Shown here one piece after another: positions 42,236-61,768 of a DNA stretch of 64,000 nucleotides; within the stretch, counting starts at the first letter, position 1, and the number at the start of each line of letters is the position of its first letter. Origin of the DNA: Thermoproteota archaeon (lineage in GTDB: Archaea; Korarchaeota; Korarchaeia; Korarchaeales; Korarchaeaceae); the NCBI GenBank assembly GCA_027491915.1, contig JAOZGC010000001.1, forward strand, positions 124,001 through 188,000, written 5' to 3'. The position numbers and the translations under genes were made by a program. Under the pieces are notes generated by a model, which saw only the letters and a program-made list of their open reading frames with translations, was not told the origin of the DNA and searched no databases.

Positions 42236-43858
42236 TCACAGCACCCCCCTCTTCCCCCCGGCGTAGGCCCAGCCGGCGGCCGCCAGGGCGGCCGACTCAA
42301 CCAGGGCCGGCGCCGCCGGGGGGATCGCCGCCGCGGCGTCCACCCACCAGGCCGCCGGCAGGAACCTCACAAACCCGGCGGCCTTGGCCGCGTAGAGCAG
42401 GTAGGGGGCGACCGCCAGGCTGGCCATGAGGCCGAACATCAGGATCTCCCCGAGGAAGGCCAGCACGATGGTCAGGCCGGAGAAGGTCTGCTGGCTCCAG
42501 GTCGAGGGTTGCTCCGGTAGCCTCCCCGCCGCGAACCCGGCGTTCAGGAGGGCCGAGCCGGCGGCCGCCAGCTCGTAGGACGCCCCCGCCGCCGCGGCCG
42601 AGGCGGGATCCCCCAGGGCCGCGCAGGCGGCCGCCAGAGCGGCCGCGGCCGGGACGTTCAGGAGGGCCATGAGGGCGGCCTTCTCCCTGGCCAGCTCGGC
42701 CTTTGTCAGCGGCAGGACGTACAGCAGTCTGGCCCCCTCCCCCTCCACCACGAACAGGTTCGTGACCCCCAGCCCACCGATCCCGCCGAGGAAGAGGGCC
42801 GCCGCCGGGACGGCCGGGGTCAGCACCCTGAGCCAGGTGGGGTCGACCCAGCCGCCGACCGCCAGGGCCGTCGGGGCCACTATCAGTATGGGGATGGCGG
42901 CCGTGTAGACGGTGGAGGCGAGGATCCTGGGGTTCCTGGCCAGGAGCCTCAGGTCCTTGATAATCCTCTGGGCCGACCCGGCCCTGACCGCCCAGCCCGC
43001 GCTCGGGGGAGGCTGCGATGGCAGCAGGTAGGAGCCGAGCGACGCGGCCCTCCACAGCCTGGAGGACCCGAGCAGGAACGTCAGGGCGGCCGCCGCGGAG
43101 GTGGCCAGGGCCGAGGCCGCCGCCGCAGGGTCGCCCAGGGCGGCGGCCGCGTAGCAGAATGGAGGGATCTCGGCCACCCAAGGAGCCGCCCCGGGGCCCC
43201 CGGCCTCCCCCCCAGCGGTCCCACCCACGGACCCTACCACGCTGGGGACGAAGCCGGCCAGGAAGAAGGAGATCCAGAGGACCGTCTGGATCGCCCTGGC
43301 GATCCGGCTCCTGGTGTACTTCGGCGTCAGGGACCCTATGAGGTAGCCTATCCCGGAGGCCAGCGCCGCCAGGGAGGCGGCCTCCAGGAGACCCCACGCG
43401 GCCAGGGAGGGGAGCCCGAGCATCCAGGCCGCCACGCAGGAGCCGGGGATCACAGCCATGACCGCGGCCGCCAGCCCCCAGTACACCCCAACCGCCAGGA
43501 GGGCCCTCCTAATCACCCCCTCCCCCACAGGGAGGTGCCTCAGGGGAGTCAGCAGGTCCTCGGCCATCACGGTGTGGACCGCCATGGTCATCCCGAAGGC
43601 CGCCATGAAGAACTCCATGAAGCCCATCAGTCCCATAGAGACTGTGAGGAAGGAGAGATCCCCCTCAACCGCCGACGTCCACCCCAGGAACACGGAGGCG
43701 GCCGATAGGAGGAGTCCCACCACGGCGTTCGACTTGATCAGGTTGCCGGCCCCATAGAAAACCCACCTCCACGACCGTTGGCCGACTCCAGCCCTCCTGG
43801 CGGCCCTGTACGCCGCCTCCCTCGCCAGGATCGAGGCGAGCTCCCTCCAGCCGGTCAC
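42236..43858 (-). CDS. ABC exporter permease, large membrane protein
   Basis: The 540-residue protein has about twelve membrane helices, alanine-rich, in two halves joined by a cytoplasmic loop with YTRSRIARAIQTVLW. A second interface-like segment is AQRIIKDLRLLARNPRIL. The layout fits ABC-2-type permeases of the larger class. GTG 43858 overlaps the ATPase stop (GTGA), so translation is coupled; the upstream ATG would sit inside the ATPase gene. No substrate can be inferred. Confidence 0.8.
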   Translation of the reverse strand: MTGWRELASILAREAAYRAARRAGVGQRSWRWVFYGAGNLIKSNAVVGLLLSAASVFLGWTSAVEGDLSFLTVSMGLMGFMEFFMAAFGMTMAVHTVMAEDLLTPLRHLPVGEGVIRRALLAVGVYWGLAAAVMAVIPGSCVAAWMLGLPSLAAWGLLEAASLAALASGIGYLIGSLTPKYTRSRIARAIQTVLWISFFLAGFVPSVVGSVGGTAGGEAGGPGAAPWVAEIPPFCYAAAALGDPAAAASALATSAAAALTFLLGSSRLWRAASLGSYLLPSQPPPSAGWAVRAGSAQRIIKDLRLLARNPRILASTVYTAAIPILIVAPTALAVGGWVDPTWLRVLTPAVPAAALFLGGIGGLGVTNLFVVEGEGARLLYVLPLTKAELAREKAALMALLNVPAAAALAAACAALGDPASAAAAGASYELAAAGSALLNAGFAAGRLPEQPSTWSQQTFSGLTIVLAFLGEILMFGLMASLAVAPYLLYAAKAAGFVRFLPAAWWVDAAAAIPPAAPALVESAALAAAGWAYAGGKRGVL

Positions 43859-44622
43859 CCGACCCCCTCCCCCCATAGCATCGAGAGGAGATCCCTGACC
43901 TCTCCGGCCAGGCCGGTCACCTCGAGGAAAACGGACTCCAGGTCCTCGGCATCCCTCATACCCTTGAGCTCGTCCGGAGCCCCCCTGGCCACGACCCTCC
44001 CGGCGTGGACGATTGTTATCTCGTCGGCCACGGCCTCGGCCAGCTCGAGGACGTGGGTCGAGAACACGACGGTCTTCCCCTCGGCCGCCGCCTTCCTCAT
44101 GATCTCCCTGAGAACCCTGCCCACCTCTGGGTCCAGCCCGGAGAAGGGCTCATCCATGAGGATCACCTCCGGATCGTGCAGCAGGGCCAGGGCTATCGAG
44201 ACCTTCCTCCTGTTACCGTGACTGAGCTCTCCGCACAGCTTTCCCATCTCACCCTCGAGCTTGAGCAGGGCGACCAGCGTCCTGGTCCTCTCCTCCAGGT
44301 CGTCTGAACCGATCTCGTACACAGAACCGACGAAGGAGATGAGCTCCGCCGGCGTCAGGCTCTCGTACAGGACGTTCTCCTCCGGGACGTAGCCGACCAG
44401 CCTCCTGGCCGCCACCGGATCCCGCGAGGGGTCAACCCCGTCCACCCTCACCTCCCCCTCATCCGGCCTGACCACGCCCACGGCCATGGACATCAGGGTG
44501 CTCTTCCCGGAGCCGTTGGGACCCAGTATGGCGTGGATCACCCCAGGCTCGAAGGAGGCGGTGACCCCGTCCAGGGCGACCACGTCGCCGTACCTTTTCC
44601 TGACCCCCCTGTAGGAGAGCAT
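43855..44622 (-). CDS. ABC exporter ATP-binding protein
   Basis: The 255-residue ATPase has Walker A GPNGSGKST, the Q-loop region VGYVPEENVLYE, signature-like ELSHGNRRKVSIALALL, Walker B VILMDEPFSGLDPE and the switch histidine in VFSTHVLELAEAV. The signature has LSHG instead of LSGG. An open frame continues about 190 codons upstream, but that part is antisense to the cytochrome maturation gene. ATG 44622 follows GGGAGGGGAG and a TATA-like TAAAAAC. Confidence 0.9.
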   Translation of the reverse strand: MLSYRGVRKRYGDVVALDGVTASFEPGVIHAILGPNGSGKSTLMSMAVGVVRPDEGEVRVDGVDPSRDPVAARRLVGYVPEENVLYESLTPAELISFVGSVYEIGSDDLEERTRTLVALLKLEGEMGKLCGELSHGNRRKVSIALALLHDPEVILMDEPFSGLDPEVGRVLREIMRKAAAEGKTVVFSTHVLELAEAVADEITIVHAGRVVARGAPDELKGMRDAEDLESVFLEVTGLAGEVRDLLSMLWGEGVG

Positions 44623-44828
44623 CCCACTCCCCTCCCGAACGGAGTTTTTACCTTTTCCTGGGGCCCGCCGGGCGTGAGGGATAGAGATTTTCGGAAGGGG
44701 GCGCCGACGCGCTCCGGGGATGGCCCCCGACGGAGGAGCCGCCTCGCCGCAGCTTCCCGGATCCGGCGTTCCCTGGTGACGGCGATCCGGATCAACTAGA
44801 TGCGCCCGCCGCCGGGGGAGATCACGAG

Positions 44829-47642
44829 TTAAACCGACCTCCGGAGGGATATGCCCCAGTGAGATATCTCCGCTGACCTCCTTAGCCTGAGGAAAATGAG
44901 GCCAACCTCCGAGGCGACCATCAGGGATGCCCCGAGCCATAACAGAGAGATCCCGGGGATCATCTTGACCTGGACGCTGATCCCCCGGCCGCGCAGGACC
45001 GAAGACGACGGATCGAATCTGGACGCCCGATCGTACAGGTCCAATATCTGGGGTACCACCTCCCCCGCATCGGTCGGCGCGCCCAGATAGGAGACGGTGA
45101 GGAGGGACGCCAAGGCGAGCTTCTGCTCCTCCCCCAATCCTTCGAAGGTCTTCCCGAGGTAGAAGACCATGAGCTCGTGGAATCCCACGCTCCACCTCCT
45201 CCCCCTGAGTATGGGGGGGTTGAACACGAGGTACAGATCGTCGGCCCCGATCCCCACGGGCATCACCTGGGCCACCAGGCCGTGAATCCCCTGGACCTCC
45301 CCGTTGACATCGAATCGGATCCTCACATCTCTCTCGACTCCCCCAACCCGCATCTCAAGGAGGAGCTCGGCCCCTCCCGGAACCTCCTCCGGAACCGGCA
45401 GGTAGCCCTCGCATCCCGGGGGAAGCTCGGGTCGAAGCTGGGCCGCCGCCAGGCATCCCTCGGGCGGCGGCAGGGCGATCTCATCCGGGAGGGAGTCCAG
45501 TCCGTGCTCCTCTATTATCTCCAGCAGGTCGGCGATCACCTCGGGGTTCTCCTGCCCGACGTAGAAGGACGTGAGGGTGGGGGCCGGGGCCGGGACGTCC
45601 ACCTTCCCCCCGTCCGGGAAGACGTAGTACCCCTCGTCGACCCTCATGACCTCTCCCTCAGCGGGATCGTCCGAGGGGATCAGGACGGCCCTCTCCACCT
45701 CCAGTTCTCCCGACCCGAGGCGTAGGGAGAGAGGATTCCTGAACTCCAGCCTCACCGCCGACCCGCCCGCCTGCCGCGAGGGCGGGGTCAGGGATACGTT
45801 CCCCCTGACCTCGACCTCGAGAGACGCCCCGGAGACGTCGGCCGCGATGCGGCCGTAGACCTTTGGATCCCCGACGGAAACCAGGGCGGTCTCCGGCGTT
45901 CCCCCACCCACCGGGGTGACCTCGGCCTCGGCCGACGATTCCCCCACCGCGGCGGCTCCCCCCCTCAGCATTCTGTGCAGCCTCAGGGCGCCGCCGTACT
46001 CCTCCGCCACCCTGTAGATGTAATCCAGGGTCCAGAGGAACGCCAGGGCGGCCCCCCTGTGTATCTCCGACCTGCCGACGTAGGGGGAGTATATGTCCAC
46101 CTCTCCCCCAGACATCCTGTACTCGTAATCCCTGAACTCCAGGTCGACGTCGCCGATCCCCACGTCGGCGCCGGGCGGTATGGACAGCTCCTCGAAGTAG
46201 GACCTACCGTAGGCGAAGGGACCGCTGATCGCTATCCCGAGCATGATCAGCGCGGCCGCCGAGTGGAGGGCCGACAGGAGGGCCGCCGCCGGCGCCCGGG
46301 CCGAGGCCCACCGGTAGAGCGACACGAGGCCGGAGGCCACCCCCACCACGGAGAAGGGTGTCAGTACCGATATCATGGCGTTGGTGACCGCGGGGCTTGC
46401 GGGCGACCAGACGAGCCTGCCGGAGAGAGTCAGGTGGAGCAGGACCCCCGACAGGATCGAGGTCCCCGCCAGGAGGCCAGAGGCCTCCCTCCAGCCGATG
46501 CCCCCTCCGAGCCCCAGGGTGCACAGGGGTATGGACGCGGTCAGCGCCAGCGCGAGGGGGAGCAGGATGGGGTGGAAGAACCCCACGGCCGAGTCCATCT
46601 GGGGGACGTCCACCCCGAGTCCGGCCAGGCTGCCGACCGTCCCGACGGTGAGCACCGCCGCGAGGAACAAGAACATCATGGAGAGCGACAGGTAGGACAC
46701 GACGAGCCCGAGCCTGTAGGGAGTGGAGGTCGGCTTGCCTATTCCCTGCCCCCCAGATCTCCTGAGCCCCGCCGCCACGAAGGCCGATGCCAGGGAGAGT
46801 GTGAGTACCCCGGTGGCCGATCTGGCGGAGGCGAAGCTGTGCAGGGGGGACACCCCTCCCCTGGTGACCAGGATGGCCAGGAAGACGCTCCCCGCCGATG
46901 CCATGAGGGAGGTGTAGGATAGGCCCCTGTCCAGCGGTCTGACGTGCATGAACGCCGTCAGGGCTAGCCAGGGAACAAGCTCTGCCGTCTCGACCGGATC
47001 CCAGGCCCAATAGCCCCCCCACCCGAAGGTGACGTAGCTCCAATAGCCGCCGAGGACCAGTCCCAGGGTGAGCAGCACCCAGCCGGCCTCCGCCAGCGAG
47101 TCGCTCGCCTCCAGGCGGCCCCTGTGGGCCGCCACGGCCGCCGCGGATATCAGGGCGTATCCCGCGAACGTTGAGAGGGGGTGCGGGTATATCCAGGGGC
47201 TCTTGAGCAGGGGGTTCAGTCCCATTCCGGCGGCGGCCGCCGGGGCCGCCGATTCGAAGGCCCCGTCCAAGAGCGCCAGGGCCGCCGAGGAGGCCGCCAG
47301 AATAGAATACTCGGCATCCAGTTTCGGATCGTGGTGGCGCCTCCCGTGGGCGAGGGCCACCGCAGATAGTATGGCCGCGAACAGGAGCAGGCTCCCCCCA
47401 CCTCCTGCCCAGCTGGACGCGACCCTGAACGCTAGGGGCATCCCCCTCGACGACGACTCGTAAACCGGTCTCAGGGTGTAGTCCTGGGAGACGAACGCCC
47501 AGACGTAGGCCATCCAATCCGCGATTATCAGGAGGTGAGCGACTAGCGAGAGGCGGGTTCTCCTGCCGGAGGCCCAGGAGGCGGCGGCCGACGCCAGCAG
47601 GAGGGCCGCGCCGGAGGAAGCCACCACCCCGGTGTAGTGCAA
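44829..47642 (-). CDS. ccmF: CcmF-like heme lyase with large extracytoplasmic domain
   Basis: The 937-residue membrane protein carries the heme-handling WWD-type motif WGGYWAWDPVETAEL (208-222), with conserved histidines in YPHPLSTFAGY (His154) and AFMHVRP (His233), typical of CcmF. It would attach heme to apocytochrome c outside the membrane. E. coli CcmF is about 650 residues; here about 415 residues (480-893) lie between the last two membrane helices, many beta-like. The final helix is SLLWLGASLMVASEVGLIF. The open frame begins further upstream, but TTG 47642 follows GGAGGGATCG after the previous stop. It is the last gene of the Ccm operon. Confidence 0.88.
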   Translation of the reverse strand: MHYTGVVASSGAALLLASAAASWASGRRTRLSLVAHLLIIADWMAYVWAFVSQDYTLRPVYESSSRGMPLAFRVASSWAGGGGSLLLFAAILSAVALAHGRRHHDPKLDAEYSILAASSAALALLDGAFESAAPAAAAGMGLNPLLKSPWIYPHPLSTFAGYALISAAAVAAHRGRLEASDSLAEAGWVLLTLGLVLGGYWSYVTFGWGGYWAWDPVETAELVPWLALTAFMHVRPLDRGLSYTSLMASAGSVFLAILVTRGGVSPLHSFASARSATGVLTLSLASAFVAAGLRRSGGQGIGKPTSTPYRLGLVVSYLSLSMMFLFLAAVLTVGTVGSLAGLGVDVPQMDSAVGFFHPILLPLALALTASIPLCTLGLGGGIGWREASGLLAGTSILSGVLLHLTLSGRLVWSPASPAVTNAMISVLTPFSVVGVASGLVSLYRWASARAPAAALLSALHSAAALIMLGIAISGPFAYGRSYFEELSIPPGADVGIGDVDLEFRDYEYRMSGGEVDIYSPYVGRSEIHRGAALAFLWTLDYIYRVAEEYGGALRLHRMLRGGAAAVGESSAEAEVTPVGGGTPETALVSVGDPKVYGRIAADVSGASLEVEVRGNVSLTPPSRQAGGSAVRLEFRNPLSLRLGSGELEVERAVLIPSDDPAEGEVMRVDEGYYVFPDGGKVDVPAPAPTLTSFYVGQENPEVIADLLEIIEEHGLDSLPDEIALPPPEGCLAAAQLRPELPPGCEGYLPVPEEVPGGAELLLEMRVGGVERDVRIRFDVNGEVQGIHGLVAQVMPVGIGADDLYLVFNPPILRGRRWSVGFHELMVFYLGKTFEGLGEEQKLALASLLTVSYLGAPTDAGEVVPQILDLYDRASRFDPSSSVLRGRGISVQVKMIPGISLLWLGASLMVASEVGLIFLRLRRSAEISHWGISLRRSV

Positions 47643-47662
47643 TCTACGATCCCTCCGCCCGG

Positions 47663-48706
47663 CTACTCCAGCATCAGGTATATCCCCAGCGCGGCCAGGA
47701 TCGCCCCGGCCGACCTCTCGAACCACTTGGAGGACGAGATGGGGCCGCCCAAAACCCCGACCCTCCCGATCAGGTACAGCGAGGCCGCCAGGGCGGCGGA
47801 CATCCCGGCGGCCAGCAGGACCGCGCCGGCCACGCCCGTCGCCGGGTCTCCGGCCGCCCCCACCAACGCGACGTAGCCCGCCAGCAGGGGCAGGCCGCAC
47901 TGCGCCGCCACCAGCCCGAAGCCGAAGCAGGCGGCCGGCAGGCTCGAGGACAGGATGGACCTAATCCTCCTCCCGGGGATCGGGCAGGAGTCAGAGGCGG
48001 AGAACGCCGCGATCGACCCGAAGAGGACGGCCGCCGAGGCCATGGCCCTCCTCACGCCTCCCATAACCCCGATGGCGGCGGACGAGGCCAGCCCCAGGAG
48101 GGCGGCCAGGGCCGCGGTTCCCAGGAAGGAGGAGGCGGCGCAGAGGATGTAGTCCCTGGCCCTCCTCCCCCCGCCGACGGTCGCGTAGGCCGCCACCAGG
48201 GGGGCCGAACACGGAGACAGGGCCATCAGCGCCCCCAGCGCCGGGAGGAGGTACAGGGGGGCAGACGCCGGTCCGGCCGCGCTCTCGGCCTCGGCCGACC
48301 CGACCGACTCCTCTATCCACTCCCTGAGCACTGCCTCCGGGTCCCCGCCCACCTCCCCGACCAACCTGCCCACGACCGCCCCCTCCCTGAGCACCAGGAA
48401 GGTGGGAGTCTCCGTCACCCCGTACTCGGAGAAAGTCCGGTCGGTCTCCCCCGGTATGAGGGGCACGTCGACCGCCCTCACCCCGGGGGGAGGCGAGGCC
48501 TCTATGGAATCCCACGCAGGCTTCATCCTCTCGCAAGAGGGGCAGGTCCAGCTCCAGAACATGACCGCCACGACCCCCCTCTCGAGGTCGCCCGCCGCCG
48601 TCAGCCCCCCAATCCCCCGCCCGACCGGGGGGGCCAAGACGATCCCGAGGCCGACGGACGAGACCACGACGACGGCCGCCAGCATCCCCTGACCCTCGAT
48701 CCTCAA
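47663..48706 (-). CDS. Thioredoxin domain fused to CcdA-like membrane protein
   Basis: The 347-residue protein starts with a membrane anchor, then a thioredoxin domain with redox motif WTCPSCERMKPAW (CPSC at 55-58) and the cis-proline strand TETPTFLVLREG. A CcdA/DsbD-type membrane half follows, with cysteines in ALSPCSAPLVAAYA and AAQCGLPLLAGYV. The fusion joins reductant transfer across the membrane (CcdA) with its thiol partner (CcmG/TlpA-like) and would keep apocytochrome cysteines reduced. GGAGGTG overlaps the CcmB stop and suits TTG 48706. Confidence 0.88.
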   Translation of the reverse strand: MRIEGQGMLAAVVVVSSVGLGIVLAPPVGRGIGGLTAAGDLERGVVAVMFWSWTCPSCERMKPAWDSIEASPPPGVRAVDVPLIPGETDRTFSEYGVTETPTFLVLREGAVVGRLVGEVGGDPEAVLREWIEESVGSAEAESAAGPASAPLYLLPALGALMALSPCSAPLVAAYATVGGGRRARDYILCAASSFLGTAALAALLGLASSAAIGVMGGVRRAMASAAVLFGSIAAFSASDSCPIPGRRIRSILSSSLPAACFGFGLVAAQCGLPLLAGYVALVGAAGDPATGVAGAVLLAAGMSAALAASLYLIGRVGVLGGPISSSKWFERSAGAILAALGIYLMLE

Positions 48707-48710
48707 GGAC

Positions 48711-49361
48711 TCACACCTCCAGCACGTATCCGGCCAGGGCGGACGCCAGCAGCGAGAAGAACGCCCCGGTCAGCGCGAGCGCGACGATCCCGGAGCGTCC
48801 CCCGACCGACAGGAACGCCAGGATCTCTTGGACGGCCGGGAGGCTCAGCACCAGGATCATCGTGGGGAGCAGAATTCCCCTGGCCCTCAGATATACCGCC
48901 ATGGCCGAGGAGAGGGCGGAGACGGCCGAGAGATACAGGCCGGCCGCCGCCGACATCGAGAACAGGTAGGGCAGGTCCCCTATCGCCTCACCTGACAGCA
49001 CCGCGACCGCCGCGAGCGAGATTCCGATGAGACCCTCCATTAGGGTGACGCTGAGCAGCAGCTTGGCGGCGAAGAAAGTCGTCGGCCGAACCGGGGTTAG
49101 CCTGACCCCGTCCAGGGTTCCCAGATCCTCCTCCCTTACTATCGTCATGATCGAGGTGAACACCGCCAGGAAGACGGCTATCAGGGCGATGCCGGCGCCG
49201 ATCAGGGGCAGGGGATCCTCCGGAGAGAGCCTGTTTACCGCGAAACCCAACACGCTGGAGGAGGCCACCGAGAAGACGACGGCCCCGCCGAGCTCCGGGA
49301 GATTCCTGGCCTCCAGCCTCAGATCCTTCCAGAGGATCGTCCTAACCTGGTTCAGCCTCAA
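48711..49361 (-). CDS. ccmB: CcmB heme exporter permease
   Basis: The 216-residue protein has six membrane helices and the family start TILWKDLRLEARNLPEL, then IVREEDLGTLDGVRLTPV, the loop that contacts CcmA. In Ccm systems CcmAB drives release of heme-loaded CcmE from CcmC. It overlaps ccmA by 20 bases. Confidence 0.92.
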   Translation of the reverse strand: MRLNQVRTILWKDLRLEARNLPELGGAVVFSVASSSVLGFAVNRLSPEDPLPLIGAGIALIAVFLAVFTSIMTIVREEDLGTLDGVRLTPVRPTTFFAAKLLLSVTLMEGLIGISLAAVAVLSGEAIGDLPYLFSMSAAAGLYLSAVSALSSAMAVYLRARGILLPTMILVLSLPAVQEILAFLSVGGRSGIVALALTGAFFSLLASALAGYVLEV

Positions 49362-49974
49362 CTCTGCCGTCCCCCCCTATCTTGAATACCCTATCTACTA
49401 TCAGGCTCGGATCGGTGGGCGACGTCAAGAGGACCGCCCCGCCGGACGACGAGATCCTTCGCAGGAGGGTCCGAATCCACCTCCTCCCGGGCTCGTCCAA
49501 GCCAGCCGTCGGCTCGTCCATCAGGACGAGTCGGGGTGAGTGGATCAAGGTCCTGACGATGTCCACCCTCTTGCGCCATCCGTAGCTCAGCTTGGAGACC
49601 GCAGCGTCCATCAGATCCGACAACCCGAGCTCCTCTATGATCCCCCGAACGTGGGAGATCCCCGGGAGACCGTGGAGTCCCGCATAGTAGGCCAGGTTCT
49701 CCCTCACCGTCAGGTCCCCGTAGAGAGGGGGGGTGTGGGGCAGCAGGCCAACGGTGGCCTTCGCCTCGGGTCTCCTGGCGTCCACGCCGGAGACCAGGAC
49801 CCTCCCCCTGGACGGCGTTATCAGGCCGGCGGCGAGCCTGAGCAGCGTCGTCTTTCCCGACCCGTTCGGCCCGACTACCGCCGCCACCTCTCCCCCTCTG
49901 AGGCTCAGGTTGACCTCCCTGAGCACGTAACCGGATCCAAAACCCTTCCAAACGTCCCTGAACTCCAGCAGCAC
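49342..49974 (-). CDS. ccmA: CcmA heme-export ATPase
   Basis: The 210-residue ATPase has Walker A GPNGSGKTT, signature-like KLSYGWRKRVDIVRTLI, Walker B LVLMDEPTAGLDEPGRRW and a short C-terminus, as in CcmA. It has the signature motif LSYG rather than LSGG, a common CcmA variation. It overlaps ccmB by 20 bases and directly abuts ccmE. Confidence 0.92.
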   Translation of the reverse strand: MLLEFRDVWKGFGSGYVLREVNLSLRGGEVAAVVGPNGSGKTTLLRLAAGLITPSRGRVLVSGVDARRPEAKATVGLLPHTPPLYGDLTVRENLAYYAGLHGLPGISHVRGIIEELGLSDLMDAAVSKLSYGWRKRVDIVRTLIHSPRLVLMDEPTAGLDEPGRRWIRTLLRRISSSGGAVLLTSPTDPSLIVDRVFKIGGDGRVEAEPG

Positions 49975-50391
49975 TCAACCACCCGTGGCCGGCGGGGCAT
50001 CATAGGCCCTGTGGCAGCCTTGTAGGATCTGCTCTATCTCTATCTCCCCGAGCACGCCCTCCCCCTCACCCGCCGGGTAGAACACGCCCCTGATCACTAT
50101 CTCCTGGTCCACCGTCCTGTGAGACGGGGGGGCCCCGTACTGGCCCAGGAACTTGGTCAGGTTGTAGACCGCGCGCACGGCATTGCCCTCGTCGTCTCCC
50201 AGGACGAAGACCAGCAGATCCCTCTCCGGCTCGATCTCCGTGTCCACCAGGCGGGCCCTGACGGTCACCGCGGTCGGCCTCCTGTACTCGGCCAGCTCGC
50301 CCACGTCGACGTAAGAGCTGGACGCGACGGCCGCGTACCCGACGAGCGCGAGCAGCACGGCCGCCGACGCAGCCAGCGCCAGCGCCCTCAA
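49975..50391 (-). CDS. ccmE: CcmE heme chaperone, archaeal CxxxY type
   Basis: The 138-residue protein has a membrane anchor (AASAAVLLALVGYAAVA), an OB-type beta barrel and the heme-binding end QGCHRAYD. The heme-linking residue is Cys126 with Tyr130, the CxxxY variant known from archaea and some sulfate reducers, instead of the usual HxxxY. It carries heme from CcmC to CcmF outside the membrane. It overlaps ccmC by four bases and is followed at once by ccmA. Confidence 0.93.
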   Translation of the reverse strand: MRALALAASAAVLLALVGYAAVASSSYVDVGELAEYRRPTAVTVRARLVDTEIEPERDLLVFVLGDDEGNAVRAVYNLTKFLGQYGAPPSHRTVDQEIVIRGVFYPAGEGEGVLGEIEIEQILQGCHRAYDAPPATGG

Positions 50392-51434
50392 GCTGCCCCC
50401 TCCCTCGAAAGGCGGGCCAGCCCCAGCGGGACGGCCGCGTATATCAGGGAGTTGATCGGGTTCCCCCAGTATGGGACAAGCCTGAGATCCTCGGCCATGA
50501 CGATTCCCCCTTCCAACCTTCCTCTCACCAGGATCCAGTGGCCCCGGAGCGTGAGTACCTCCTCTCCCCCCACCTGCACGGTCAGGGGGCGTATGGGCGG
50601 ATCTCCACGATACTCAAGATCCAACTCCTCGCCCTCCGCCGCGACCCTGAGCCTCAACGTCCCGTTCTCCGCCTCGCCCGATACTACCAGGGCCTTGAAC
50701 TCCCCGGCCCGGGGGTCGGTGCCCGCGAGACTCGGCGGGAGCTGGAGGGCCGCCACCGCCAGCGCGGCCAGGACGACGGGGGCGGCCACGTAAATCGGGA
50801 TGCCGCCCCGCCCCGCGGATGCGGCCAAGAGAACGGCCTCCGCGGAGATCAATGCGGTTCTGCTGGCGAAGAGGATCGCCGTCAACCCCCCGTGGACGAA
50901 GGCCGCCGTCTCGGGTGCCACTGGGTGGAGGCTGGGCATGGCGTAGGGGACGACGAAGCTCAGGGGGACCGTGGAGTAGGCCGCCGCGGCGAAGGCCATG
51001 GAGACCCTGGGCCTGACGTCCGGATCCTTTACACTCGATCTGACAGCGAGATAAACCGTGAAGGCCAGGAACATGAAGAGGACGCCGGTCTCCCTCGGAT
51101 CCCAGTTCCACGGCGAGCCCCAGGACTCTGAGGCCCACACCATGCCGGTCGCCAGCGTGGCCGCGCCGGCGACCAGCCCGGCCAGTATGAACGAGTGGGC
51201 CGCGCGCTCGGCGCTCTCAGACCCCCTAACGAGGAACGCCAGGGCGAAGGCAAATCCCAGGGTGAACAGGACGTAGGTTGCCACCGAAACGGGGACGTGG
51301 ATGTACAGGTTCCTGTAGGCGGTTGGATCTCCGAGCGGGACCACCGACGGGAATGGACCCATCACCTGAGAGACGAACAGGGTCGCGGCGTCCAGAGTGG
51401 AGATCAGGGCCGCGGTCGCCAGGCGGGCTCTCAT
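50388..51434 (-). CDS. ccmC: CcmC-like heme handler with extra C-terminal domain
   Basis: The first 230 residues are CcmC: RNLYIHVPVSVATYV (His46), the WWD-type motif ESWGSPWNWDPRETG (103-117) and a second histidine in MPSLHPV, with six membrane helices. CcmC loads heme onto CcmE. The remaining ~115 residues form a beta-rich extracytoplasmic segment, including TLRGHWILVRGRLEGGIVMA, then a last membrane-like end. This part resembles an OB strand pattern like that of CcmE, but I cannot prove it. ATG 51434 follows GGTGATC and a TATA. It is the first gene of the Ccm operon. Confidence 0.88.
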   Translation of the reverse strand: MRARLATAALISTLDAATLFVSQVMGPFPSVVPLGDPTAYRNLYIHVPVSVATYVLFTLGFAFALAFLVRGSESAERAAHSFILAGLVAGAATLATGMVWASESWGSPWNWDPRETGVLFMFLAFTVYLAVRSSVKDPDVRPRVSMAFAAAAYSTVPLSFVVPYAMPSLHPVAPETAAFVHGGLTAILFASRTALISAEAVLLAASAGRGGIPIYVAAPVVLAALAVAALQLPPSLAGTDPRAGEFKALVVSGEAENGTLRLRVAAEGEELDLEYRGDPPIRPLTVQVGGEEVLTLRGHWILVRGRLEGGIVMAEDLRLVPYWGNPINSLIYAAVPLGLARLSREGAA

Positions 51435-51558: not shown

Positions 51559-52269
51559 TCAGGCCGACGGCTCGTCCCTGTATCCGAAGACTATCGACCT
51601 GAGCATCCCGTAGACCCAGCCGGCGTAGGCGTGCACTATGAGGACCACGAGCACCGCGGCCGCCAGGAGGAAGTGGGCCGCCCTGGTCGCCACGGCCTCC
51701 CTGGTCCCTATCACCAGGGCGGCTGCGCCCTGGACCTGGAGGTTGTCCGGTATCACGGCCGCGCACAGCCTGTGCACCTGCGCCAGCGGCTCTGGGAACA
51801 TCAGGGCCAGCCCGGTGACTATGATGCCCGCCCCCAGCAGGAACCAGAGCCACCAGGCGAGAACCTCGGTCGGGACTACCTTCTCCACGTAGTCCCCCCT
51901 GTCCTCATCGTACCTTATGGGTTCGGAGACGTGCCTGCCGGTGAACCAGGCCCTGACCTCCGCGAAGAAGAAGTCGAACCCGGCCGGTATCCTCCTGAGG
52001 CCGTACCACCTGTACTCCCCGTCCATGACGAACAGGTATATGAAGAACAGGGCGGTGGCCGCGAACGCCAGCCCCGTGACCTCGTGCAGCTGCCTGGCCG
52101 TACCCCTGGAGATTATCTCCATGTTCAGGGCCTCTGAGAGGCTTATTCCCGTTACCCCGAGGATCGCCCCCTCGGCCACCATGAGCCAGTGGACTATCCT
52201 GAACAGCAGGGAGTGCCTCCTTACCCTGACCCTCCCGCCGGCCTCACTCCTCGCCGCCATGGCCGCCAC
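51559..52269 (-). CDS. Membrane cytochrome b, formate dehydrogenase gamma/hydrogenase cytochrome b type
   Basis: The 236-residue protein has about four helices and likely heme histidines in LFRIVHWLMVAEGAILG, RQLHEVTGLAFAATALFF and VLIVHAYAGWVYGM. This is the cytochrome b561-type fold used by quinone-reactive partners of periplasmic redox proteins. It overlaps the upstream diheme cytochrome c gene by 14-26 bases and is probably its membrane partner. It is a second such cytochrome b, distinct from the one in the formate dehydrogenase operon. Confidence 0.85.
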   Translation of the reverse strand: MAAMAARSEAGGRVRVRRHSLLFRIVHWLMVAEGAILGVTGISLSEALNMEIISRGTARQLHEVTGLAFAATALFFIYLFVMDGEYRWYGLRRIPAGFDFFFAEVRAWFTGRHVSEPIRYDEDRGDYVEKVVPTEVLAWWLWFLLGAGIIVTGLALMFPEPLAQVHRLCAAVIPDNLQVQGAAALVIGTREAVATRAAHFLLAAAVLVVLIVHAYAGWVYGMLRSIVFGYRDEPSA

Positions 52270-53257
52270 CCACCGCCCTCTTTATCAGGTGGATCGCGAC
52301 TCCGCCGACGGCGGCTCCGGTCAGGAACCCGGCCCAGGTGTTGAGCGGGGTGCCGTAGGCGGTCTGGAGCCTGGCCTCGGCCACGTGGGGCCTCATGTCC
52401 TTGTGGCAGGTCTCGCACTGCAGGAATCCCCTGGTGAACTGGCCGCCCTCGTAGTCCTTACCCTTGTAGTGGCAGGTCCTGCACTCGGCCGTCGTCTGGG
52501 AGAGGGTTATCCCGGCGATGGCCTCCTCCAGCGCCCCCCTGAGGTCGGCGTTCAGGAGCTCCACCGCCTTGGCCGCGACGTCACCGGTCAGCCTGGCGCA
52601 CCTCTCGGACCTCTCCGCGGAGCCGCTCGCGTAGCCGGATATCTCGCACCACTTGCCCACGGATACGTGGCACAGCACGGACCCGCTCACGTTCTGGGGG
52701 AGGACCTTGTCGCTCTTGTACTTGGGGACCAGGAACTGGTGGCCGCTGGCGTAGGAGTTGGACGTGTCGCTCGGGAAGGGGGTGATCTCGTACCACCTCA
52801 TGAGGGCCTTTCCTATCTTGTCCCAGTTCTCGCTCACCATGGTGACGGCAGAGATCGACCCGTTGAGCGCGCCGCACAGGGTTCCCCAGGCCACCCCCCC
52901 GCCGTAACCGTACTGCATCATCCCGTGGAGGTGCCTCTTCTCCTCCAGGGCGCTCAGGACCTCCTCCCTATCGGGCAGCGGGAGTAGCGTGTAGGGATAT
53001 CCCACCTGCTCCTTCAGGGCCGTCATGATCGCCCAGAAGCTCCCTCCCCCACACTCGAAGGAGTAGTACCCGAGGTGGCCCAGCTTCCTCACGTACTCCG
53101 GATCCAGCTCGACGTAGGGCCACGGCAGCTCCGGGGCTCCCTGCTCCTCCTGGGCCACGACCGGCTCCACCCTGAGGGACGCCACCACGCTCCCGACTGA
53201 GGCGACGGCCAGCCCCTTCAGGAAGGATCTCCTGCTGGTGTCAACCAAGTTCGACAC
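52244..53257 (-). CDS. Tat-exported diheme cytochrome c, split-Soret type
   Basis: The 337-residue protein has a twin-arginine signal (TSRRSFLKGLAVASVG, RR at 9-10) and a core with GMMQYGYGGGVAWGTLCGALNG, as in split-Soret cytochromes of sulfate reducers. Two CxxCH heme sites follow (CRTCH 259-263, CETCH 281-285) and then a C-terminal membrane helix. Extra cysteines (Cys69, Cys128, Cys196, Cys204, Cys220) could bind a cluster. The open frame begins at ATG 53281, but that ATG lies inside a TATA-like TATTATAAAT; GTG 53257 is about 25 bases downstream, fitting a leaderless start. The Ccm operon lies just beyond the partner cytochrome b. Confidence 0.85.
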   Translation of the reverse strand: MSNLVDTSRRSFLKGLAVASVGSVVASLRVEPVVAQEEQGAPELPWPYVELDPEYVRKLGHLGYYSFECGGGSFWAIMTALKEQVGYPYTLLPLPDREEVLSALEEKRHLHGMMQYGYGGGVAWGTLCGALNGSISAVTMVSENWDKIGKALMRWYEITPFPSDTSNSYASGHQFLVPKYKSDKVLPQNVSGSVLCHVSVGKWCEISGYASGSAERSERCARLTGDVAAKAVELLNADLRGALEEAIAGITLSQTTAECRTCHYKGKDYEGGQFTRGFLQCETCHKDMRPHVAEARLQTAYGTPLNTWAGFLTGAAVGGVAIHLIKRAVGGGHGGEE

Positions 53258-53279
53258 CTTAGCCGGGCCCGTGGCCGTC

Positions 53280-53289
53280 ATTTATAATA
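53280..53289 (-). promoter_or_regulatory. TATA element for the cytochrome c operon
   Basis: TATTATAAAT on the minus strand is about 25 bases from GTG 53257. A second AT-rich block around 53375-53400 (minus GATATAAATTTA) lies further upstream and may add regulation. Confidence 0.5.
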
Positions 53290-53408: not shown

Positions 53409-54383
53409 CTAAGCCAAGACCCACATGGGGGAGCGCGCCCCCGAGGTCCTCTCCAGGAGCCCCTTCCCCCTCAGGCTCTTGAGAGCGCTGTAGATCGTCC
53501 TCGGTGGGAGCCCCGTCCTCCTCTTCAGCTCGGAGGTGCTCATGGGGCCGAACTCCTTGATCACAAAAAGCACGAACCTCTCGGAGGGCGACAGGTCGCC
53601 GGGCTCCCGCTTGCTCTTTATCAGGAAGGTGTCCCCCCTCACCCCGACCCTGATGCTCTCCAGGGACAGGACGTCCCCCCACCCGATGTTCCCCAGGTTC
53701 ACGTCCGGCCCCAACCTCCTGATCAGCTCTATCTGCTGCCCGGTCCTGGGGGCCTCGAATATGATCTTGGAGTGATCGAACGTGGATGCGATGGCCGAGA
53801 GCCTGTGGGACAGTATGTTGCCGCTCTCGTCGAATATGCAGGATGCCCGCCCGAACTCCCTCCCCTCTATTACGACCTTCCAGACGGATCCCCCGCGGAA
53901 GGCTGCGTCTATTTCCGCCGTTACCTCCCTCAGGGACAGCCTCCTGGTTGGATCCTTCTTGCCCACCTCGAATGTCACCTTGAATCCCTGCTCCCTGGCG
54001 TGGTCGGCCAGCTCGAGGCGCTCCTCGAGCGGCACGTCTATTATGCCGGAACTCACCTCGGCCACGTTGAATCCCACCTCCCAGGCTCTCTCCAAGAACT
54101 CCCTGGCCCTCCCCCTGACGTAGCTGAGCTCGAACAGGGTTCCCCCGAACCCCACGTCCAGGTCGAACTGGTGATACAGCGATATCCTCTCCCTCAGCAC
54201 CTCCTCATCGACCAGCAGCGGGAGGCCCCACCCGAGCTTCACGTAGTCGACGTAGGGCGATCTCTCCTCCAAGCCCAGGCAGCCGGTCGGGCCGTCTAAC
54301 TTGTCTAAAACCATCGTGATCCCGATCTCCCTCGGCTTCCCCGGTCTCCTGTTCAGCAGCCCCTCCCAGAGCCGCCCCGGCAT
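53409..54383 (-). CDS. ComA-like phosphosulfolactate synthase fused to a winged helix
   Basis: The first ~245 residues match the ComA (phosphosulfolactate synthase) TIM barrel: REIGITMVLDKLDGPTG, DYVKLGWGLPLLV, VGFGGTLFEL, VTFEVGKKDPTR, WKVVIEGREFG and GPDVNLGNIGWGDVL. ComA makes the first intermediate of coenzyme M from phosphoenolpyruvate and sulfite. The C-terminal ~75 residues are a winged helix: SERFVLFVIKEFGPMSTSEL, RTIYSALKSLRGKGLLER. So this may be a ligand-sensing regulator built on a ComA barrel, or a bifunctional enzyme. The open frame begins at TTG 54434, but the family match and a TATA about 28 bases upstream favour ATG 54383. Confidence 0.85.
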   Translation of the reverse strand: MPGRLWEGLLNRRPGKPREIGITMVLDKLDGPTGCLGLEERSPYVDYVKLGWGLPLLVDEEVLRERISLYHQFDLDVGFGGTLFELSYVRGRAREFLERAWEVGFNVAEVSSGIIDVPLEERLELADHAREQGFKVTFEVGKKDPTRRLSLREVTAEIDAAFRGGSVWKVVIEGREFGRASCIFDESGNILSHRLSAIASTFDHSKIIFEAPRTGQQIELIRRLGPDVNLGNIGWGDVLSLESIRVGVRGDTFLIKSKREPGDLSPSERFVLFVIKEFGPMSTSELKRRTGLPPRTIYSALKSLRGKGLLERTSGARSPMWVLA

Positions 54384-54406
54384 CCCGACAGTCTCGGTGG
54401 GATCTC

Positions 54407-54416
54407 TATTAAAATA
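54407..54416 (-). promoter_or_regulatory. TATA element for the ComA-winged helix gene
   Basis: TATTTTAATA on the minus strand lies about 28 bases before ATG 54383 with no ribosome binding site, fitting a leaderless transcript. Confidence 0.55.
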
Positions 54417-54609
54417 GCTCTCATCACGCGTCAATTTATTTTACCTTCGGGTGAGGAGACGCCGGGCGGCGCCGTCCGGGGGCAACCCATCCCCTGTGGG
54501 AGGCGGCGCCGATCCGACCGGGGGGCCTCACCTCACGCCGAAGACGCCCGGCGATCCCGTGATCGGACCGTCAGGAAAACCCGGGGGACTGGCCCGCGAT
54601 ATTCGACCC

Positions 54610-57307: not shown

Positions 57308-60300
57308 GTGGGTAAGGGGGGCTTCCCGCTGGCGGCGATCCTGGCGATACTCCCGCTTATCCCTGCCGCGCTTCCGGCGCGGGCGGGCGGAGGGGTTGAC
57401 CTGTCAGGGAGGGTTGTGGGCCCGGGTCCCCGGGTCGCGCCGCCCGAGGGATTCTCCCTCCTGCTCTCCGCCGAGGTGGCGCCCGCCGCGCGCGAGTACG
57501 ACCCGCCCGCCCTTGCGCCCGACCTGCCCTCGGGCCTGACGGATCCCGACGATGGGAGGGAATCGGTCTCGGCGACGGTCCCTCCGGGGACCGTCTGCCT
57601 GACTCCAAGGGGGTGGCGGGAGGCCCCCCACCCGAGGCTGGCGGCCTACGACGGGGGGACGTGCGACGCCGGTCCCCCGGGAGACGGGGCAGTAACCCTG
57701 GTCTTGGCCGCCCCGGGCCGGCCGGCCGGGCCGTCGGGCGGGGATCCCACCTACGTCGTCAACAATACCGCCGACTCCGGTCCGGGCAGCCTCAGGTGGG
57801 CCCTGTCCGAGGCGGCGTCCGACGGGCTCCCCTCCAGGATAACCTTCGACCTCCCCGAGACCGACCCCGGGTACAACGGGACCCACTGGGTGATACACCT
57901 CTCCTCACCCCTGACCGTGTCCGGAGAAGCGACCGACCTGGACGGGACCACGCAGGCCGGTTACTCCGGATCCCCGGTGGTGGTGATAGACGGCTCGTCC
58001 CTCTCCTGGGACGCGGTCACGGTGGCCGGGGACAACTGCACCATATCGGGGATCGCCGTCGTGGGACCACCTCCGTCGGGAGGATTCAACTACGCCTGTC
58101 TCTGGGTGAACTCAGGCGTCGAGAACCTGACCGTGAGATCCTCGGTCTTCAGGGGACCCTCGCCGCCGACCGGCTCGGGGGCCAGCAGATCCTACAGCTG
58201 CTACTACGGGATCTTCCTGGACGATCACTCGGAGGGCGCCCTAATCGAGGGATCCACCTTCCGGTGGGTCGACAGGGGCATCATGGCCAGGAGGTACTAT
58301 CACGGGGAGAGGGCCCCGGTCATCAGGGCCTGCGACTTCGAGGACGTCGCCTACGGGGTGAAGCTCTACGGGGTCGCCCGGGGATCGTCGGTGGTCCTGG
58401 TTGAGGGCTCCACCTTCAACCGCTCTTACTACTACGGAGTTTACTCCTACGTGGCCGCCGTCCGGATCGAGAACTGCATCTTTGAGGCCTCTCCCGTCTA
58501 CTGGATGCCCGACTGGTGGACGTGGACCAGCGCCGTGGGACTCGTCGGCACCACCAGCGCCGTCGGGTGGTACGACGTCGTCAGGCCCGAGATCAGGAGA
58601 TCCACCTTCATCCAGGGATCCGCCGAACCGCCGCCCTTCGACGGCGGAACCGCCCTCTGCGGGTACTTCTCGGACCCCCTCGTGACGGACGTGGTCGTCA
58701 GGCAGGAGAAGCCCGTCCAGGCCGTGATGATCCGTGGGGGGACTGGATACGATCCCTCCATCCCCTCCCTCTCCAGGTGGACCCTGAGGAACGTCACCCT
58801 GATTGGCTTCGGCCCTGGAGGGCAGAGCCACGTGGGCGTGCTCGCCTCGGGAGGGGGATACGGCATGTCCGGGGTGGAGGTCATATCCTCCGAGATCGAG
58901 AACTTCACCGTCGGCGTCAGGCTGTGGAATCCTGGGGGGCCCTCCAGCAGGGTGGACTACGCCTGGATCGGCTGCACCAGGATCTCCGGATGCTCGGACG
59001 CCGCCCTCTCCGTAGAAGACGACTCCAGGAACGTGACGGTCAACAGGTCCAGGTTCGAGTCCAGCGGGGTGGGGGTCAGGGTATCCCCATCGGCCTCGGA
59101 CGTCCTGATATACGACGACGTCTTCGACTGCGTCGAGAATTCCGAGGATCCCGCGGTCGACTGCGTCGAGAATTCCGAGGATCCCGCGGGGGCGGCCTCC
59201 TGGTACGTTTCCCCGAGGCCCGGGCCCAACGTGGTCGGCGGGCCCTGGATAGCAGGAAGCTGGTGGAGCGACTACCTGGGATCCGACCTGGACGGGGATT
59301 GGCTCGGGGATACGGACTTGCCCCACAGGGGGGACGTGCACCCCCTCCTGATCCCGCCGGACCCGGCCAAGGCGGACCTGGAGGAGGTCGAGCTGACGTA
59401 CGCAGATCCCGGAGGACCCCCCGTCTCCCCCGGGGACGAGCTGGTCTTCTCCGTCCTGGTGGTCAACTCCGGCTCCCTGGACGCCCTGGCCAACCTGACC
59501 CTGAGGCTGCCCCCGGGCCTGACGGGGCCAACCTTCGTCTCCCCGCCTCCGGGGGCCGTCAACTCCTCTGGCCCTGGATTGGTGTCCGTCCTCGGCATAT
59601 CCGTGCCGGCCGGATCCTCGGCCGCCGTGACGTTCGGGGCCCAGGTGTCCGCCCCGTCAGGATCCTCGGTTCCGGTCCAGGGTTGGGTGACCTACTCCGA
59701 GGTGGGGTGCGGCTGCTGCGCTGGGGCGGAGCCCACAGACGATCCGACCACCCCGGCGCCGGACGACCCCACGGTCGTGGAGGTCGCGGGCGCAGCCTCG
59801 CTGAGGATCGAGGTCTCGGGCATCCCGCCGTCGGCGTCCGTGGAGGTCTACGTGAACGGCTCCCCGGCCGGAACGGTCTCCCCCGGATCTCCCCTGGATC
59901 TCTCGCTGGATCCCGGGTGGGTGGAGGTGGACGTGGGGTCCCTGTCCGTCGGCCCGGGTACGAGGCTGGAGGCCAGGTGGTGCTCGGTCAACGGGACCCG
60001 GACGGCGAGGCCTGCGTCCCTCCGCCTCGAGAGATCTGCGCTGATCTCTTTCAACTTCTCCGCCAAGCACAGGGTTGAGGCCGTCTCAAGGTTCGGCTCA
60101 GTCCGGGGTGCCGGATGGTACTGGGCCGGCTCCCGGGCGTCGGTCTGCGTCTCCCCCACGGAGTTCGAGGGACCCACGGTCAGGGCCCACTTCCGCGGGT
60201 GGTCCGGGTTCCCGGTCGGCTCCAGGTGCGCCTCCTTCAGGGTGGTCTCCCCCACGAGGCTGACGGCCCTCTGGCGAGTGGATTATCTGGTGGAGGTGGA

Positions 60301-61768
60301 CTCCCCGTTCGGCCGCGCCTCGGGGGCCGGCTGGTACCCGGAGGGTTCGGTCGCCGAGATCAGGGTCCCCGGATCGGTGCCCCTGGGTCCGGGTTCCAGG
60401 GCCGTCTTCTCCCGGTGGGCCGGCGACGCGGAGGGGTCGTCTCCGACCTTGAGGCTCGTGGTGGACTCTCCCAAGAGGATCTCGGCGATCTGGTCCCTGG
60501 AGCACCTGGTCGTGGTCTCCTCCGACCCGCCGGGCGGGCTAAACCTGAGCGAGTGGGTCCCGGCCGGTGAGACCTTCTCCTTCGAGGCCCCAGCTATCAT
60601 GAACGTGTCCGGTTCGCCCTGCGCATTTTCCGGGTGGTCCGGCTCGGTCTCCTCCCAGGAGAGGAGGATCAGCCTGGTGGTCGACGGCCCCAAGAGGCTG
60701 GTGGCCTCCTGTTCCCGGTGGGCGTCCGTGGAGGTCAGGACCTCCCCGGCGCTCCCCATCGATCTGGGGATCGGTAGGGTGGAGGTTGGCTCCGAGGTGT
60801 GCGTCGAGGCGCCCGAGTTCTTCCAGAACGAGAGCGGGGTCAGGTGGAGATTCTCCGGCTGGGAGGGGTTCCCGGGGGAGGGGAGGGAGATCTGCCTCAC
60901 CGCCCTCGGGAGGAGCACCCTGACCGCCACGTACTCCAGGGAGTACCTGGTCCGGGTCGAGGCCCCCGGGGAGCTGGGGCCGTTCGGCTCCGGGTGGTAC
61001 CCCGAGGGGGCGGAGGCGGAGGTCGGCGTCTCCGCCACGACCGCCGGAGGGGAAGGCGGAGCTCGGATCAGGCTGCTCGGGTGGGAGACGCCCTCCGGGA
61101 GCCGCCCCCCGGTCCGGAAGATCCGGATCAGGGTGGTTGGACCGACCTCGGTCAGGGCCGTGGCGGCCCGGGAGGTGAGGGTTAGCATAGAGCCGCGCCT
61201 CCCGGAGGAACTGCCGCCCCCGTCCGGCCTCCTCATGCTGGCCCGGAAGAGGGTCGAGGTCAGGTTGGAGGAGCCCGTGGACCTCTACGTTCCCCTGAAC
61301 TCGACGATCGAGATATACGCCCGACCGATCGAGCCGCTGGGTCTCTTCTCGGCCAGGGTGCTCCTCGGGGTCGAGGTATCCCGGGGCTCGTGGTCCACCC
61401 CGAGTCCGGGCGCGGTCAGGTTGGTGGTCGGAGGTCCGACCTCGGTGAGGCTGGAGTTCTCCCAGCTCTTCTCCTACCTGCCCGCGGCCGCCGCGGCGTC
61501 GGCCGCGACGGCCCTCATCCTGGGCAGGAGGAAGGGGAGGGCGGAGGCCGCGTCCCAAACGCTGATCGCGGCCCTCTCCCTCGGGGTGATCCCCCTGCTC
61601 CTGAGGACGGCGTGGATCGGCCCGGCGGTCGCGATCGCCTCGACCACTTGGTGCTTCCTCGCCCCCTGGGTCGCCCTCTCCCTTGCCCTGTCGGCGGCCT
61701 CCGCCGCCGTCCCCAGGTCGGCCAGGGCGCGCGGCTCCCCCGGCCGACCTTTATTTACTCGCGAGTAA
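57308..61768 (+). CDS. Giant surface protein: beta-helix, DUF11-like domain, GWY repeats
   Basis: The 1486-residue protein has an export signal (LAAILAILPLIPAALPARA). A right-handed beta-helix follows from about 148 (VVNNTADSGPGSLRWALSEA) to about 650, the fold of surface adhesins and polysaccharide lyases. A DUF11-like beta-sandwich lies at about 684-824, then about five repeats of about 75 residues at 915-1295 with the pattern GAGWYPEGS and later SGW or RWAG. Three membrane helices end the chain. No catalytic residues are obvious, so adhesion or a cell-wall role is likely. The GTG has a TATA-like CTTAAATC 34 bases upstream. It holds a 33-base tandem duplication. Confidence 0.85.
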   Translation: MGKGGFPLAAILAILPLIPAALPARAGGGVDLSGRVVGPGPRVAPPEGFSLLLSAEVAPAAREYDPPALAPDLPSGLTDPDDGRESVSATVPPGTVCLTPRGWREAPHPRLAAYDGGTCDAGPPGDGAVTLVLAAPGRPAGPSGGDPTYVVNNTADSGPGSLRWALSEAASDGLPSRITFDLPETDPGYNGTHWVIHLSSPLTVSGEATDLDGTTQAGYSGSPVVVIDGSSLSWDAVTVAGDNCTISGIAVVGPPPSGGFNYACLWVNSGVENLTVRSSVFRGPSPPTGSGASRSYSCYYGIFLDDHSEGALIEGSTFRWVDRGIMARRYYHGERAPVIRACDFEDVAYGVKLYGVARGSSVVLVEGSTFNRSYYYGVYSYVAAVRIENCIFEASPVYWMPDWWTWTSAVGLVGTTSAVGWYDVVRPEIRRSTFIQGSAEPPPFDGGTALCGYFSDPLVTDVVVRQEKPVQAVMIRGGTGYDPSIPSLSRWTLRNVTLIGFGPGGQSHVGVLASGGGYGMSGVEVISSEIENFTVGVRLWNPGGPSSRVDYAWIGCTRISGCSDAALSVEDDSRNVTVNRSRFESSGVGVRVSPSASDVLIYDDVFDCVENSEDPAVDCVENSEDPAGAASWYVSPRPGPNVVGGPWIAGSWWSDYLGSDLDGDWLGDTDLPHRGDVHPLLIPPDPAKADLEEVELTYADPGGPPVSPGDELVFSVLVVNSGSLDALANLTLRLPPGLTGPTFVSPPPGAVNSSGPGLVSVLGISVPAGSSAAVTFGAQVSAPSGSSVPVQGWVTYSEVGCGCCAGAEPTDDPTTPAPDDPTVVEVAGAASLRIEVSGIPPSASVEVYVNGSPAGTVSPGSPLDLSLDPGWVEVDVGSLSVGPGTRLEARWCSVNGTRTARPASLRLERSALISFNFSAKHRVEAVSRFGSVRGAGWYWAGSRASVCVSPTEFEGPTVRAHFRGWSGFPVGSRCASFRVVSPTRLTALWRVDYLVEVDSPFGRASGAGWYPEGSVAEIRVPGSVPLGPGSRAVFSRWAGDAEGSSPTLRLVVDSPKRISAIWSLEHLVVVSSDPPGGLNLSEWVPAGETFSFEAPAIMNVSGSPCAFSGWSGSVSSQERRISLVVDGPKRLVASCSRWASVEVRTSPALPIDLGIGRVEVGSEVCVEAPEFFQNESGVRWRFSGWEGFPGEGREICLTALGRSTLTATYSREYLVRVEAPGELGPFGSGWYPEGAEAEVGVSATTAGGEGGARIRLLGWETPSGSRPPVRKIRIRVVGPTSVRAVAAREVRVSIEPRLPEELPPPSGLLMLARKRVEVRLEEPVDLYVPLNSTIEIYARPIEPLGLFSARVLLGVEVSRGSWSTPSPGAVRLVVGGPTSVRLEFSQLFSYLPAAAAASAATALILGRRKGRAEAASQTLIAALSLGVIPLLLRTAWIGPAVAIASTTWCFLAPWVALSLALSAASAAVPRSARARGSPGRPLFTRE
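59126..59191 (+). repeat. 33-base perfect-reading tandem duplication in the surface protein gene
   Basis: Two copies of the same 33 bases, differing only in the last bases, add a second DCVENSEDPA motif. The duplication keeps the frame and falls at the end of the beta-helix, where repeats can lengthen the fiber. Confidence 0.85.

Follow-up and report, generated by a model that had tools for sequence, protein, structure and literature searches.

A variant of System I of cytochrome c maturation (Ccm), which has a CxxxY-type CcmE and no CcmH, was reportedly described in archaea and some bacteria by Allen et al. in 2006 and by Goddard et al. in 2010. A CcmH-less, CxxxY-type Ccm is already established as an archaeal form. 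In Methanosarcina acetivorans, CcmABCEF works without CcmD, CcmH, or CcmI (Gupta et al. 2022, PMC9084895). When ccmG and ccdA were deleted from M. acetivorans, cytochrome c stayed at about the same level in the laboratory under reducing conditions (PMC9084895). The same work leaves it an open question how archaea attach heme to cytochrome c when CcmD, CcmH, and CcmI are missing (PMC9084895). Among the archaea that Kletzin et al. surveyed, a single one had homologues of CcmH (PMC4429474). Here we describe a ccm operon from a korarchaeal genome that is 91% complete (Thermoproteota archaeon, GenBank assembly GCA_027491915.1). The window that we analyzed is 64,000 nucleotides (nt) long and corresponds to positions 124,001 to 188,000 of the forward strand of contig JAOZGC010000001.1. 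We think it quite likely that this operon encodes a functional archaeal System I without CcmH, and that its main client in this genome, and perhaps its only one, is the split-Soret diheme cytochrome c that is encoded next to it.

The operon lies on the minus strand, from 51434 down to 44829, and contains ccmC, ccmE, ccmA, ccmB, a fusion of thioredoxin to CcdA (trx-ccdA), and ccmF, in that order. ccmC overlaps ccmE by 4 nt, ccmE and ccmA abut (0 nt), ccmA overlaps ccmB by 20 nt, and there are gaps of 4 nt between ccmB and trx-ccdA and of 20 nt between trx-ccdA and ccmF. A first-pass annotation of this DNA had proposed six overlapping or abutting ccm genes at 44829-51434, and we recovered all six, with identities from family, profile, and motif matches. 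(Our analysis covered gene content, conserved residues, the absence of CcmH and CcmI, the conservation of gene order, and predicted folds.) CcmA, CcmB, CcmC, CcmE, and CcmF are all encoded, which is the gene set of the archaeal CcmH-less System I. Judging from the sequence, this is a conserved archaeal Ccm operon that very probably works.

As in M. acetivorans (PMC9084895), the operon encodes CcmA, CcmB, CcmC, a CxxxY-type CcmE, and CcmF, along with CcdA and a thioredoxin-like reductant; CcmH and CcmI are missing, and no CcmD scored above its cut-off. But the M. acetivorans genes are scattered over several loci, two polypeptides make up its CcmF, no fusion has been reported for its CcmC, and it encodes CcmG and CcdA separately. 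The operon also shares the CxxxY-type CcmE and the lack of CcmH with the variant System I, as far as the accessible part of that literature goes. That part states that some bacterial members with the CxxxY motif (Desulfovibrio) need CcmD, for which nothing here passed the cut-off, and it makes no mention of an OB-fold tail on CcmC.

The first gene of the operon encodes CcmC (50388-51434; PF01578, 5.5e-28). Its 348 amino acids form a core with six transmembrane (TM) helices (residues 1-205) and a C-terminal tail. In the core, the heme-ligand histidines H46 and H170 are invariant (21 of 21 sequences) and the WxWD loop is kept (GSPWNWDPRE). The core of the AlphaFold model (pLDDT 83, pTM 0.83) matches E. 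coli CcmC (7f02_C and 8ce1_C; Foldseek 4.3e-5; Z = 17.5 in a structure comparison). The fold of residues 1-205, the WxWD loop, and the two heme-ligand histidines are as in the CcmABCD/E complex of E. coli (7f02, 8ce1; PMC10457321). In contrast, E. coli CcmC has no such tail, and E. coli has a CcmD, uses H130 of CcmE, and joins heme to the cytochrome with CcmFH.

In the model, the tail (50388-50795) consists of TM7 (residues 214-236), a domain with a predicted OB fold (about 238-321), and TM8 (324-345). TM7 and TM8 are predicted with good confidence, and the domain between them is predicted to be seven-stranded, with many OB-fold proteins among its matches. The tail's sequence is poorly conserved between lineages, and its only fully invariant residue is H299 in the OB domain (50538-50540; 21 of 21 sequences). 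At the end of the domain, position 322 is a tyrosine in 9 of the 21 sequences and a histidine in 11. The first-pass annotation missed the tail. The literature that we searched, in which older work is thinly covered, does not mention it either, and it is apparently unreported.

CcmF (44829-47642; PF01578, 7.6e-19; TIGR00353, 121 bits) has 937 amino acids if translation begins at the TTG at 47642. (A mechanically called reading frame of 1023 amino acids overruns upstream.) Its best match in the PDB is the CcmF of Thermus (6zmq; profile, 8.2e-27; fold, 2e-9). The WWD domain (GWGGYWAWDPVE) is invariant in our alignment, and H154, H233, H268, and H460 are invariant in all of the rows that cover them. 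We take these histidines to be the equivalents of H173, H261, H303, and H491 in E. coli. The loss of a needed residue from CcmF or CcmC, which the first-pass annotation had raised as a concern, was not seen: both proteins retain their heme-handling histidines and their WxWD or WWD motifs. Before its last helix, CcmF has an enlarged extracytoplasmic domain (about residues 483-896; 44955-46196), which is reliable only in part in the model (mean pLDDT 69). In this domain, H822 is invariant (16/16) and H787 is nearly so (15/16).

CcmE (49975-50391) has 138 amino acids and an N-terminal TM anchor, and its TTG start overlaps the stop codon of ccmC. By alignment, its heme-binding motif is CHRAY (C126 to Y130; 50002-50016), and C126, H127, and Y130 are invariant across 11 aligned sequences. 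The Pfam model for CcmE (PF03100) matches neither this protein nor any other in the genome. Nevertheless, a profile of this CcmE aligns over nearly its full length to archaeal CcmE proteins that do match PF03100 (L098-L102; hhalign E = 9e-12, probability 97), with CxxxY on CxxxY. Comparing the profile to PDB sequences gave no CcmE match, only weak chance matches, so the identity of this CcmE rests on the alignment to archaeal CcmE, the motif, and the position of the gene.

Of the other genes, ccmA (49342-49974) encodes an ABC ATPase (PF00005, 1.9e-29) that falls just below the cut-off of TIGR01189 (127.5 versus 131.6 bits), and we named it by its ABC family and its position in the operon. ccmB (48711-49361; PF03379, 1.9e-9) encodes the membrane subunit. 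The fusion protein Trx-CcdA (47663-48706; 347 amino acids) has a signal anchor, a thioredoxin domain with the motif CPSC (PF00085, 9.7e-7), and a CcdA half with the motifs SPCSAP and QCGLP. Pfam models do not match the CcdA half of the window's copy, and a relative (L029) has a weak match to PF02683 (DsbD_TM; 0.012). We identified this half as CcdA because of that weak match and because the cysteines of two motifs, SPCxxP and QCxLP, are invariant across 8 aligned sequences. (A scan for sigma-70 promoters gave no match, but that model weighs little for an archaeal host.)

Directly upstream of ccmC, on the same strand, is a pair of genes that the first-pass annotation missed. One encodes a cytochrome b561-type membrane protein (51559-52269; PF01292, 3.4e-14), and the other encodes its partner, a split-Soret cytochrome c (52244-53281; NF047622, 1.5e-46, which is below the curated cut-off). 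The cytochrome c has a Tat signal and two CxxCH motifs (52403-52417 and 52469-52483). Across the genome, we found 11 DNA matches to CxxCH: two lie in this gene, and the other nine lie in the genes for glycyl-tRNA synthetase or MoaA or in frames that occur by chance. The split-Soret protein is thus the only convincing exported CxxCH protein that we found in this genome. Furthermore, wherever the gene upstream of ccmC could be read in relatives, it encodes a cytochrome c. The same pair of cytochrome b and split-Soret genes precedes ccmC in L033, and five other loci (L029, L031, L032, L034, and L059) have an exported octaheme cytochrome c, with eight CxxCH motifs, instead. From the neighborhood and the CxxCH count, we infer that the split-Soret cytochrome is a client, and the pair as a whole is likely the client of the operon. 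A comparable pair is expressed in Pyrodictium delaneyi (split-Soret protein Pyrde_1256 and cytochrome b Pyrde_1257; PMC8105010).

We also noticed some features of these cytochromes in the relatives. The octaheme proteins (L029:5615-7564, L059:4130-6118, and those of L031, L032, and L034) match PF13447 and have weak similarity to hydrazine dehydrogenase. Octaheme genes are also found near the ccm clusters of L111 and L112, which are Pyrodictiaceae-like. The split-Soret gene of genome G014 (L033:12157-13173) has one in-frame TAG, after "...YTTLPIPSK", and a further copy of the split-Soret gene, L047 of genome G017, contains both a TGA and a TAG. These stop codons may reflect decay, sequencing error, or readthrough.

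We then asked how widespread the operon is. The family grouping has 24 genomes, including the one studied here, and CcmF was found in 9 of them. As the first-pass annotation had suggested, we compared the operon's content across related archaea, and the same gene block is kept in six relatives (L029, L031, L032, L033, L034, and L036), with the six genes in the same order, although ccmF in L034 runs off the end of the contig. Of the remaining loci, L030 is on a contig that begins inside ccmC, and the ccm genes of G017 are on two contigs, with ccmC, ccmE, ccmA, and ccmB beside the octaheme cytochrome on C16 (L059) and with trx-ccdA and ccmF on C38 (L035). Three near-complete genomes (G003, G007, and G011) have no match to CcmC or CcmF.

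When we scanned the genomes of named bacteria and archaea, the long form of CcmC turned up in metagenome-assembled genomes (MAGs) labelled Pyrodictiaceae, Desulfurococcales, Acidilobaceae, Aeropyrum, Thermodiscus, and Thermoproteaceae. The archaea behind L037, L095, and L096 have a short CcmC without the tail. A close likeness is in L112, from a Pyrodictiaceae-like MAG, which has the identical six-gene order, the OB tail on CcmC, the Trx-CcdA fusion, and a CcmF of 1004 amino acids. It differs in that its neighbor is an octaheme cytochrome c and in that its CcmF lacks a pair of cysteines (C730 and C744, discussed below). In a maximum-likelihood tree of CcmC, the seven proteins from the family form one group, which is sister to L111 and L112 (support 99/99). 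This grouping and the patchy distribution fit a transfer between this family and the Pyrodictiaceae-like lineage. Which way such a transfer would have gone depends on the rooting, for which three rows with long branches served as the outgroup.

What is known of other Ccm proteins suggests how the operon would function, although each catalytic step, the choice of client, and any function of the OB domain are inferences. CcmA and CcmB would drive the complex. In CcmC, heme would sit at the WxWD loop, flanked by H46 and H170, and CcmC would pass it to the cysteine in the CHRAY motif of CcmE. CcmF, with its WWD domain and four conserved histidines, would join the heme to the cysteines of CxxCH, and Trx-CcdA would bring electrons across the membrane and so keep those cysteines reduced. 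With less certainty, the OB domain of CcmC, which would lie outside the membrane between the two extra helices, might dock CcmE or might briefly ligate heme with its invariant histidine.

Several results weigh against parts of this reading. The CxxCH count includes exact codon patterns only, and CcmH or further c-type cytochromes may be encoded in the missing part of the genome. For the source of heme, the best candidate is a radical SAM/SPASM protein that is closest to the heme b synthase AhbD (L131; G000:C4:586196-587245), but it scores 270 bits, well short of the cut-off of 500, and similar matches occur in relatives, including those without ccm genes. As for the OB domain, E. coli CcmE, whose ectodomain is an OB-type beta barrel, is among its fold matches (1sr3; Z = 7.4, 21% identity, rmsd of 2.0 across 68 residues). 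Dozens of OB proteins with no relation to it reach equal scores, so this match shows a shared fold class only. Aligning the tail to CcmE with hhalign gave probabilities of just 1.6 (for CcmE proteins that match PF03100) and 0.4 (for CcmE from its own lineage), so we see no sequence link. Also, the end of the OB domain in the window's CcmC has no HxxxY or CxxxY motif; it has Y322-W323 instead. We did not classify the tail as a CcmE because it lacks this motif, and we rejected the idea that it is a plain duplicate of CcmE, as there is no detectable homology and no heme motif.

The lack of CcmH and CcmI, which the first-pass annotation had reported for the cluster, holds across our searches. CcmH (PF03918) is absent from the genome and has no match above the cut-off in 17 other genomes of the family (18 with this one), and CcmI (TIGR03142) has no match in this genome or in five relatives. 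The absence of CcmH is strongly indicated, but not final because the genome is incomplete; the 17 relatives agree. It was also suggested that Trx-CcdA and the larger CcmF replace CcmG and CcmH, in which case C730 and C744 in the ectodomain of CcmF would take the thiol role of CcmH. Besides the absence of CcmH and the size of the ectodomain, this idea draws on the position of trx-ccdA directly before ccmF and on the cysteine pair, which is kept in the family's CcmF proteins (with a shifted alignment for L035) and in L123. But the pair is lacking from the CcmF proteins of L112, L118, L121, L094, and L115, some of which are equally enlarged. Near full-length homologues of Trx-CcdA are found in at least three near-complete relatives that have no match to CcmC or CcmF, which is also why we rejected the fusion as a Ccm-specific invention. 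And M. acetivorans needs neither CcmH nor ccmG nor ccdA to make cytochrome c (PMC9084895). Because Trx-CcdA occurs in relatives without ccm genes and the cysteine pair is patchy, we consider this replacement quite improbable. Overall, our results support a complete and conserved operon that lacks CcmH and CcmI and has both a Trx-CcdA fusion and an enlarged CcmF, but they do not support the replacement of CcmG and CcmH. "Minimal" is a doubtful description of an operon with two proteins that are larger than usual, and the central claim was not new, as the CcmH-less, CxxxY-type System I is the usual archaeal form.

In bacteria, CcmD is a small subunit with one TM helix; it packs against CcmC and serves to release holo-CcmE. 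The tail of CcmC, with its two extra TM helices, could take this role. In favor of this, we found nothing above the cut-off for CcmD (PF04995) in this genome or in five relatives, TM7 and TM8 are confidently predicted, and CcmD contacts the C-terminus of CcmC in E. coli (PMC10457321). However, the shortness and variability of CcmD make it hard to search for cleanly (the model has 44 positions and gives weak matches in most of the control genomes), and M. acetivorans manages without CcmD and without such a fusion (PMC9084895). On balance, a substitute for CcmD seems unlikely. Alternatively, the OB tail might be a structural or thermostabilizing ectodomain with no role in heme transfer. This would account for its weak conservation between lineages and for the archaea with a short CcmC that lacks the tail (those behind L037, L095, and L096). 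Yet H299 never varies, in a domain where hardly any other residue is constant, and position 322 is a tyrosine or a histidine, which are able to ligate heme, in 20 of 21 sequences. A purely structural tail is possible, but we lean against it. More speculatively, CcmC might have a built-in relay that resembles CcmE: H299 and the tyrosine or histidine at 322 would take heme from the WxWD loop and give it to CcmE, CcmD would not be needed, and the operon would pass from lineage to lineage as a unit beside a swapped client, with either two hemes (split-Soret) or eight. We would not bet on this scenario.

Several other genes lie near the operon. Downstream of ccmF, on the same strand, are genes for an ABC ATPase (within 43855-44649) and for a membrane protein with 12 TM helices (PF09847; 42236-43876), which probably form an unrelated ABC exporter. 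(In the relatives, the ABC transporter encoded beyond ccmF is a different one.) On the other side of the operon, 53409-54434 encodes a ComA-type phosphosulfolactate synthase (PF02679, 2.8e-68) with a C-terminal winged-helix domain (MarR/TrmB-like). Farther along, 57308-61768 encodes a protein of 1486 amino acids with beta-helix or NosD-like matches and a hydrophobic C-terminal end, which is probably a surface protein.

To return to the CcmH-less operon, the compact gene cluster, the apparent client beside it, and the added domain on CcmC make this a small system for studying how heme is handed over from CcmC to CcmE. The nearest relatives of this lineage's CcmC are in hyperthermophiles. And if the count of clients holds, then this organism would keep a whole maturation machine for a single cytochrome.

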